Below, piece by piece: positions 451 to 3,417 of a stretch of 30,369 nt of DNA. The DNA comes from a virus. The notes beneath the pieces were generated by a model, which saw only the letters and a list, made by a program, of their open reading frames with translations, made no database searches and had not been told where the DNA came from. Numbering within the stretch: position 1 is the first letter of the stretch; every line of letters starts with the position of its first letter. Position numbers and translations under genes: made by a program. The stretch spans positions 1 through 30,369 of the IMG/VR virus record IMGVR_UViG_3300048929_000348; one strand, 5' to 3'.

Positions 451-510
451 CGGAATGTAGCTCAATTGGAAGAGCGGCGCAGGTTGCCGGTTCGAGCCCG
501 GTCATTCCGT
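451..510 (+). pseudogene. tRNA-like sequence lacking the anticodon arm (decayed tRNA or tRNA mimic)
   Basis: The acceptor stem is perfect (CGGAATG 451-457 with CATTCCG 503-509), the D arm is intact (GCTC 460-463, GAGC 472-475), and the T arm is intact (GCCGG/CCGGT around TTCGAGC, 486-502). Between D stem and T stem only GGCGCAGGTT (476-485) remains, where 22-23 nt are expected, so the anticodon stem-loop is absent. The remnant is what slippage between a GCGCA in the 5' anticodon stem and a second GCGCA at the 3' stem/variable-loop junction would leave, a loss of about 13 nt. It cannot decode a codon. The conserved acceptor and T arm mean it could still be a substrate for tRNA-processing enzymes. 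Confidence 0.7.
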
Positions 511-1738: not shown

Positions 1739-2963
1739 ACTCACTGACTTAATCGCACCTTCCTTTTACGGGATTCACTGGGATATCGTCGACGGTAATC
1801 ATACATATTACGATCTGTACGGTGGGCGAGGCTCCACGAAATCTTCTTTTGTAGGACTTGAAATCGTTCTGGGCATGATGGAGGACCCGAACGCTAATGC
1901 GATCGTTTATCGTAAGGTTGGTAATACGATTGGTGATAGCGTGTTTGAACAGATATTATGGGCGATTGACGTACTCGAAGTAAATCACCTTTGGAAATGC
2001 ACAACAAGCCCTTACAGATGCATGTACAAACCCACTAAGCAAAGGATAGTGTTTAAGGGGTTAGACGAAGCAAGAAAATCCAAGTCTGCCAAGGTAAGCA
2101 AGGGATATTTCAAGTACTTGTGGTTTGAGGAATTAGATGAATTTTCAGGTATGGAAGAAATCCGTACAGTAGAACAATCCATTCTTAGAGGCGGTCCCAA
2201 GTTCGTTGTATTCAAGACATTTAATCCACCAATAAGCGTGGCTAACTGGGCTAACAAATATGTCCAAGAGCCGCACGAAGATTCGCTAAGATGCAAGAGC
2301 GACTATACAACGGTTCCGGTTAAATGGTTGGGCGGTAAGTTCGTAAGTGCTGCCGAACATTTAAAGAGAACCAACCCCAAGGCTTATGAGCATGAGTATC
2401 TCGGAAACCCGGTAGGGCTTGGCACAAACATCTTTGAATTTCTGGAGATTAGAACAATCACAGACGCAGAGATTGCAGAGTTTGACCGCATATACCAAGG
2501 CGTGGACTGGGGCTTTTATCCAGATGCCTATGCATTTACACGAATGTATTACAACCACAACCAGGAACGCATTTACATACTTGACGAAAATTACTGTCAT
2601 AAGCAAAGGAACGTCAAGACTGGTCAGTGGATACTTGATAAACACTACGATGATTATGTGATTATGTGTGACAACGCAGAAAACAAGTCGGTAGATGATT
2701 ACAGGGATATGGGGATCCCGGCTAGAGCTGTTACTAAAGGCCCAGGATCAGTTGAATACGGCATGAAGTGGTTACAGTCACGGTACATCGTTATAGATCC
2801 AGCGAGAACACCAAATGCCTACAAGGAATTTACAGAGTATGAGTTCGAAACTGACGGAAACGGAAATGTAATAAGCAGGTATCCGGATAAAAACAACCAT
2901 ACCATAGATAGCGTTCGGTATGGCATGACACCATTGATTGGTAGGAGGGGAAATAGTGCGTAG
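1710..2963 (+). CDS. terL: Terminase large subunit (PBSX/Terminase_3 family)
   Basis: 417 aa, full length for the family. The ATPase domain has a Walker A at about residues 38-45 (GGRGSTKS; T where many have G) and a Walker B WFEELDEF at 138-145 with catalytic Glu141. The nuclease domain begins at 'YQGVDWGFYPD' (Asp266 a likely metal ligand), with a further acidic site in 'VIMCDNAENKSVDDYR' and the C-terminal 'HTIDSVRYGM' typical of Terminase_3C. The enzyme cuts concatemeric DNA and pumps it through the portal. The gene starts inside terS and its end overlaps the endonuclease gene by 8 bases. Confidence 0.95.
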   Translation: MTYQDQSQVKLTDLIAPSFYGIHWDIVDGNHTYYDLYGGRGSTKSSFVGLEIVLGMMEDPNANAIVYRKVGNTIGDSVFEQILWAIDVLEVNHLWKCTTSPYRCMYKPTKQRIVFKGLDEARKSKSAKVSKGYFKYLWFEELDEFSGMEEIRTVEQSILRGGPKFVVFKTFNPPISVANWANKYVQEPHEDSLRCKSDYTTVPVKWLGGKFVSAAEHLKRTNPKAYEHEYLGNPVGLGTNIFEFLEIRTITDAEIAEFDRIYQGVDWGFYPDAYAFTRMYYNHNQERIYILDENYCHKQRNVKTGQWILDKHYDDYVIMCDNAENKSVDDYRDMGIPARAVTKGPGSVEYGMKWLQSRYIVIDPARTPNAYKEFTEYEFETDGNGNVISRYPDKNNHTIDSVRYGMTPLIGRRGNSA

Positions 2964-3417
2964 CGGAGCGAAAAAGAATTATCCAAGGATATACAAGATA
3001 TGGCAAGGTATGCGCCAGAGATGTAATAACCCCAATGACAAAGATTATTTAGACTATGGTGGACGTGGAATAACAGTTTGCAATGAATGGGAGGAAAGCT
3101 CTATGGCTTTCGTTGAATGGGCATTGCAGAATGGGTATGCTGACAACCTAACAATAGACCGGGTAGATGTTGATGGTGGTTACTGCCCGTCAAATTGCCA
3201 CTGGGCTACTCACACGGAACAGGCGAGGAACAAAAGAGTACAGAAAACCAATAGAACTGGTTACAGTGGCGTGCATTATGAACCAAGCAGAAACAAATAC
3301 CGCGCAGTTATATACGTAGATTCTAAAAGAGTGGATTTAGGCAGATACGAAACAGTGGAGAAAGCGGCAGAGGCAAGGCGAAGCGGTGAATTAAAGCACT
3401 GGGGTAAGACGGGGTGA
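2956..3417 (+). CDS. Free-standing HNH endonuclease with C-terminal AP2 DNA-binding domain
   Basis: 153 aa, starting at GTG 2956, because AGGAGGGG lies at 2942-2950; the in-frame TTG at 2938 precedes this ribosome site. The N-terminal half is the phage HNH layout 'RIYKIWQGMRQRCNNPND', 'YGGRGITVCNEW', 'LTIDRVDVDGGYCPSNCHWAT'. From about residue 105 an AP2 domain follows ('GYSGVHYEPSRNKYRAVI', then 'DLGRYETVEKAAEARR'). Such genes are usually mobile and spread by cutting cognate sites, though some HNH proteins beside terL assist packaging. It sits exactly in the terL-portal junction and leaves both neighbours intact, so it is not an intron ORF splitting a gene. Confidence 0.88.
   Translation: MRSGAKKNYPRIYKIWQGMRQRCNNPNDKDYLDYGGRGITVCNEWEESSMAFVEWALQNGYADNLTIDRVDVDGGYCPSNCHWATHTEQARNKRVQKTNRTGYSGVHYEPSRNKYRAVIYVDSKRVDLGRYETVEKAAEARRSGELKHWGKTG

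Follow-up and report, generated by a model that had tools for sequence, protein, structure and literature searches.

Phage tRNAs without an anticodon arm, located at the start of late operons, are probably working RNAs rather than broken genes

The window analysed here, a stretch of 30,369 nt from the IMG/VR virus record IMGVR_UViG_3300048929_000348, contains at 451-510 a 60-nt element that resembles a tRNA without its anticodon arm. The locus raises the question of whether this element is the remains of a tRNA gene or an RNA that is maintained by the phage for a role other than decoding. Phage tRNAs have so far been explained by codon supply or by the replacement of cleaved host tRNAs. A selected, non-decoding phage tRNA fits neither explanation and would thus provide a clean test of other phage tRNA roles. 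Elements of this kind are also short, easily deleted and found in cultured phages, and standard annotation may overlook or discard them.

The element, on the plus strand, possesses most of the parts of a tRNA. Residues 451-457 (CGGAATG) pair with 503-509 (CATTCCG) to form an acceptor stem with seven of seven Watson-Crick pairs, as read from the sequence. This is followed by T8A9 (458-459) and by a D arm (460-475) with the stem GCTC/GAGC and the loop AATTGGAA, which includes the GG. The T arm (486-502, GCCGG TTCGAGC CCGGT) has five pairs, one of them G-U, and the discriminator is U510. The place of the anticodon arm is taken by a 10-nt connector, GGCGCAGGTT (476-485), in which no stem of four or more pairs is possible; a normal tRNA would devote 22-23 nt to its anticodon arm and variable region at this place. 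The tRNA covariance model RF00005 recognises the element with 44.4 bits (E 1.6e-6) against a cut-off of 29 (Rfam), and its alignment deletes 13 model positions of the anticodon arm. By the standard of a canonical tRNA, then, the model score and the acceptor, D and T arms are present, and an anticodon arm with a 7-nt loop is not. ARAGORN did not report 451-510 in the window. A strict geometric detector built for armless elements recovered it together with three full tRNAs. Because the same detector found no match in 607 kb of Markov-shuffled control sequence, a chance origin can be excluded, and the description in an earlier note of a tRNA with acceptor, D and T arms and no anticodon arm is confirmed. 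The cloverleaf of the element has a computed energy of -18.7 kcal/mol, compared with -20.9 kcal/mol for the minimum, an alternative pairing of D-strand with T-strand; across the armless class the median gap between the two is 0.6 kcal/mol.

The earlier note also proposed that the junction was left by slippage between two GCGCA copies in an ordinary tRNA. This origin is not supported. There is a single GCGCA copy within 451-510, and the identical connector GGCGCAGGTT recurs in an armless tRNA of another viral contig (1385-1443 of IMGVR 3300037751_000127, hereafter L278) whose stems are quite different.

The armless form is not confined to the window. A pattern with fixed parts of the D and T arms, based on one D-arm consensus, and a free acceptor (TAGCTCAN{2,4}GGNAGAGCN{9,19}GGTTCRANYCC) matched at least 120 stretches in viral contigs. 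The analysis covers 105 distinct matches among those listed, in which families are unevenly represented and to which IMG/VR contigs may contribute some host DNA. Among these listed matches, 79 of the 105 pair at six or seven of the seven acceptor positions (65 perfectly), compared with 4.6 in shuffled sequence, and the outer T-stem is complete in 90 (14.5 when shuffled). The acceptor is unpaired in the other 26 of the 105 listed, and these may be decayed or misread. The commonest connector lengths among the matches listed are 8-9 nt, and there is another maximum at 16. An alignment of 49 armless sequences, those of the window, L145 and L158 among them, has 248 two-sided changes (70 in shuffled sequence), which affect every one of the seven acceptor pairs; the covariation score is 0.80 versus 0.13-0.15 in slid controls. 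Since members of this alignment were preselected for pairing, the unbiased test is the pairing count in the 105 matches. A single case illustrates the pattern: between the armless tRNAs of L145 and L158, a G-C pair of the T-stem has become A-T through changes on both sides.

The contigs that carry armless tRNAs range from 27% to 70% G+C, which indicates that several host groups are involved. Named phages among the carriers infect Lactobacillus brevis (LBR48, Lb and 3-SAC12), L. fermentum (JNU_P5) and Polaribacter (Danklef), and in these cultured phages the elements are either unannotated or labelled as pseudo or undetermined tRNAs. In 398 Bacillota genomes the pattern gave one match, which spans an assembly gap, and no genuine one. 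Some candidates were also rejected. Those in L029, L032, L034, L088, L090, L092, L191 and L196 overlap canonical tRNA-Met(CAT) genes and are false positives, and L177 4314-4374 is a normal tRNA matched partly by the model.

Could the class nevertheless consist of tRNA genes that have recently lost the anticodon arm and have no function? Phage tRNA genes are frequently lost, a quarter of the matches listed have unpaired acceptors, and the window copy is so far unique. Searches of the viral contigs and of 299 genomes from one related host family found neither long nor short relatives of this copy, and a bacterial full-length parent was likewise rejected on these 299 genomes. Because it has no close armless relative in the viral collection, the window copy has to be judged by its class. 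The L. brevis phage family (ACGTGCATAGCTCAACGGCAGAGC..) is present in 39 viral stretches, always in the short form, and a scan of the viral contigs for its full-length form found none. In 18 contexts of this family the armless part is 96% identical, compared with 61% and 57% for the 120-nt flanks, and in the 71 pairs in which both flanks fall below 60% identity the element still averages 96%. A full-length locus in close relatives, which the earlier note took as a mark of simple decay, was found in the viral collection neither for the window copy nor for the L. brevis family.

The covarying stems, the 39 short to 0 long forms, the 96% identity amid unalignable flanks, the absence of genuine copies from the bacterial genomes, and a form and late-gene position that recur in many phages make decay or slippage unlikely for the class. 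Simple decay is largely refuted at that level, and as an account of the locus it seems very improbable. The very recent slippage pseudogene suggested before is thus not supported. The other proposal of the earlier note, that the phage keeps a tRNA-shaped RNA with no decoding role, has good support at the level of the class and, through the class, for the window copy. On comparative evidence, armless tRNAs occur in phage DNA and selection acts on their shape within the class; for the window copy itself, selection would follow from its membership. In dozens of unrelated phages, the armless tRNA is probably a working RNA rather than a broken gene.

Genomic position argues in the same direction. 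The most frequent PHROG assignments of the 81 ORFs directly 3' of armless tRNAs are the terminase large subunit (TerL), HNH endonuclease and the terminase small subunit (TerS), in that order. The 74 ORFs directly 5' are led by late transcriptional regulators or activators, with TerL occurring only twice. Local TerL queries covered 87 loci, in 51 of which more than 3 kb of sequence follows the element. TerL was placed on the same strand at a distance of 0.4-3.4 kb downstream in 23 of them, and upstream in one. The 23 are not independent events because roughly half are L. brevis-type phages. In LBR48 the armless tRNA directly follows the activator; in Danklef it follows a terminator and lies 1.8 kb before TerS. 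The elements are co-oriented with both flanking genes in 37 of 65 loci and opposite to both in five. For 70 of 91, any canonical-type tRNA is more than 400 nt away. Extra hairpins with z<-2 occur upstream in 27% and downstream in 17%; this enrichment is only mild, and a 5'-adjacent hairpin was rejected as a defining feature. As mapped by these gene neighborhoods, armless tRNAs preferentially occupy the 5' start of the late operon, with the late activator gene before them and the HNH-TerS-TerL genes after.

The window conforms to this arrangement, with all of its features on the plus strand. It begins with the C-terminal part of an ArpU/RinA-like late transcriptional regulator (3-149; PHROG 36 transcriptional regulator, E 9.6e-7), whose homologue in L008 also matches phrog_36. 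A TATAAT at 185-190, with TATCG repeats before it, is a putative -10 element of a late promoter. It was read by eye and was not called by a consensus promoter scan; a similar sequence also precedes the arrays of L005 and L008. A hairpin, TGCCGG-GAAA-CCGGCA (303-318), is found in the window, L005, L008, L158 and L180, and its position before the first tRNA is kept in related arrays. Then come a full-length tRNA-Ile with anticodon TAT (322-394; ARAGORN; RF00005, 62.7 bits), the orphan core of a structured ncRNA (395-450, GCTGGGTTCCCGAATGGGAGTA..GAATTCCTTTGC), and the armless tRNA, with the 56-nt core exactly occupying the gap between the two tRNA units. The small-RNA leader appears to be closed by a terminator-like hairpin (542-580, GGAAACACCtGTC..GATGGGTGTTTTC; fold of 511-600, -22.7 kcal/mol), which was read by eye, was not called by a simple terminator scan, and is kept in L005, L008, L108, L158, L173 and L180. 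It is followed by a small ORF, TerS (908-1738; PHROG 2606, E 5e-97), TerL (1710-2963; PHROG 3717, E 4e-49), HNH endonuclease (2938-3417; PHROG 374, E 2.5e-55) and portal genes.

Relatives identified by TerS have the same leader slot with other contents. In L005 the slot holds tRNA-Ile and a tRNA-like sequence with a 10-nt anticodon loop. In L008/L145 and L158 it holds a 10-nt-loop tRNA-like sequence, the core, a 19-nt-loop tRNA-like sequence and a further armless tRNA (CGGAACG..CGTTCCG), which stands directly before the terminator.

The core itself is found well beyond these arrays. Its 22-mer GCTGGGTTCCCGAATGGGAGTA has exact matches in 75 viral stretches (L097-L171), and the core is also present at L093 ~3001-3056, L094 3001-3053 and L095 3051-3100; no Rfam family matched it. 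In 53 of the 75 it is convergent with a DUF3644-EC042_2821 gene (PADLOC candidate PDC-S19), about 60 nt from the stop codon; these DUF3644 genes are of the HEPN type. Some of the remaining copies adjoin SIR2_2, DUF2326 or Abi_2 genes, and the idea of an RNA specific to the DUF3644 system was rejected as too narrow. The free-standing core measures about 105 nt; often it is closed by a helix of its own and ends in a T-rich tail. Its neighbours suggest that this RNA is linked to defence loci carried by phages. Among the tRNA-like RNAs of the window, L108, L145 and L158 the core stands as an orphan, and there it may be a phage-carried regulator or decoy RNA; in L292 it abuts an armless tRNA.

Members of the class keep the pyrimidine at the Levitt position together with the acceptor stem and D/T elbow, and they lack the anticodon arm. 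The retained parts are those used by RNase P, RNase Z, the CCA-adding enzyme and elbow-binding enzymes. G1 is present in 35% of armless tRNAs, compared with 65% of full-length tRNAs from the same loci (p=3e-5). CCA is encoded by 10% of armless and 39% of full-length tRNAs; where a locus holds both kinds, the counts are 2 of 23 and 31 of 96. Judged by these base counts, the acceptor ends of armless tRNAs have drifted from the translational preference. The rarity of encoded CCA suits processing by RNase Z, and a decoy for tail-directed enzymes would as a result require CCA addition.

The element at 451-510 is best regarded as a member of a recurrent phage RNA class, for which the leading, still tentative, reading is a trans-acting decoy for enzymes that recognise the acceptor-elbow half of tRNA. 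In this scheme, the late promoter would drive transcription, and RNase P together with RNase Z or 3' exonucleases would excise a stable RNA from the late leader, some 60 nt long (63 once CCA is included). The product could not decode. It would instead occupy enzymes such as tail-cutting or tail-modifying defence effectors, and it would be immune to anticodon nucleases. Human RNase P cleaves substrates without an anticodon stem-loop (PMC4919922), and acceptor-end recognition without an anticodon arm has precedent (PMC12851939). A decoy for nucleases that attack the anticodon, as the earlier note imagined, is unlikely because the RNA has no anticodon. Against the acceptor-elbow decoy stand the rarity of encoded CCA, the difference between cloverleaf and computed minimum-energy fold in the window copy, and the fixed place in one operon, which fits a cis-acting element at least equally. 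The wider proposition, that widespread and unrecognised phage small RNAs from the late operon start act as trans decoys for immune effectors of the acceptor or CCA end, is more doubtful.

A processing signal is nearly as likely as the decoy, though itself doubtful. By analogy with tRNA punctuation and with mascRNA at the end of MALAT1, the armless tRNA would be a minimal substrate for RNase P and RNase Z whose excision separates neighbouring RNAs. In the window this would free the 56-nt core, which fills 395-450 exactly between two tRNA units and is again abutted by an armless tRNA in L292; elsewhere it would trim the leader off the late mRNA. The recurrent place 5' of the late operon, the frequent co-orientation with both flanking genes, the rarity of encoded CCA, and the mascRNA/menRNA precedent combined with RNase P cleavage without an anticodon stem-loop (PMC4919922) all agree with such a signal. 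However, 70 of 91 armless tRNAs are without a neighbouring canonical-type tRNA, most have no recognised RNA to release, and extra hairpins upstream are only mildly enriched. The trans-acting decoy is slightly favoured over this signal because the slot is one that phages use for decoding tRNAs and other small RNAs as well; the late-leader site holds full tRNAs as well as the orphan core linked to defence genes. The presence of ordinary decoding tRNAs in the slot also weighs against a cis-acting leader structure, in which the tRNA shape would work before or without excision, for instance in antitermination at 542-580 or in protecting the 5' end of the late mRNA. The array has a putative late promoter before it and a terminator-like hairpin after it, ahead of TerS, and unrelated phages retain this position; both points are in keeping with a cis role. 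Nevertheless, the D-loop GG and the TTCRA go beyond what a generic hairpin would need, although they were partly imposed by the search pattern, and a cis role seems improbable. Least credible of all is a contribution to decoding, with the arm supplied in trans or through RNA processing, or the charging of the RNA by an anticodon-independent synthetase. L278 does seem to have permuted, interrupted tRNA genes, but the armless acceptors are diverse, depart from G1-C72 and share no identity element such as G3-U70.

Comparison with known systems helps to delimit the class. The phage tRNAs proposed to counter tRNA-targeting defences (eLife 2023, PMC10264068; Nat Commun 2024, PMC11555353) are complete tRNAs in which the anticodon loop is an altered or replacement one. 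The armless element is likewise a phage tRNA gene, placed in a small-RNA region of the phage genome; it differs in lacking the whole arm, so that it would decode nothing. Key words for truncated or decoy tRNA forms returned nothing from the available eLife text (PMC10264068), and the open literature, to which the search was confined, with subscription papers outside its scope, yielded no description of arm-less or anticodon-less phage tRNAs. MascRNA and menRNA, which are made by RNase P and RNase Z (PMC4919922), are also short, tRNA-shaped, non-decoding and potential processing signals. As in that type of RNA, a tRNA shape without a decoding arm adjoins another RNA both at 451-510, which abuts 395-450, and in L292. 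Nonetheless, mascRNA and menRNA are eukaryotic, nuclear and tied to long non-coding RNAs, and the likeness drawn here is one of shape. The tRNA-like domain of YrlA (RF02553) comprises acceptor-like, D and T parts, and YrlA has a permuted topology and a Ro60-binding stem, whereas armless tRNAs have free acceptor ends and the normal tRNA order. The window has no RF02553 match at E<1 and was not assigned to YrlA; weak, sub-threshold matches were both in L278, one of them at 43 bits, below the cut-off. The tRNA-like domain of tmRNA also has an acceptor and a T arm and no anticodon arm. Unlike the armless element, tmRNA lacks a genuine D stem and contains a reading frame, and ARAGORN found no tmRNA in the window.

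Several other observations were made in these sequences. The virus carrying the window is one of gut-type bacteria. At about 25.4-30.4 kb the window contains a LytTR-like regulator, tRNA-Val(GAC), tRNA-Pro(GGG), a HAD-type hydrolase and an Xaa-Pro aminopeptidase-like gene; these host-like genes suggest that the contig probably runs from a prophage into bacterial DNA. The tRNA-like sequences with a 10-nt loop form a family conserved in the late-leader slot, with C-rich loops (AATCCCCCTG, AAACCCCCTG, AACAACCCCG, AACACCCCGG) and with members in L005 (2695-2768), L008 (1124-1197), L108, L158, L173, L174, L175, L176 and L180 (2622-2693). They could read GGGG-type codons, promote frameshifting or be non-decoding. 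The unit with a 19-nt anticodon loop (L008 ~1256-1345) also occurs in L108 and L158 and is 100% identical between L145 and L158, while the neighbouring units differ. Four armless tRNAs of one family, with the acceptor NNCGATG, are present in one phage genome (L268, IMGVR 2529292852_000001, 180 kb; also L275), each followed by a similar sequence of about 110 nt (GGAGG.CGCTTG..AGAGTT.CC), and a HEARO RNA lies nearby. Finally, the region at about 500-830 of L278 holds tRNA genes that appear to be circularly permuted, with a repeated intron-like sequence and the order T arm, acceptor 3' strand, short loop, acceptor 5' strand and D arm.
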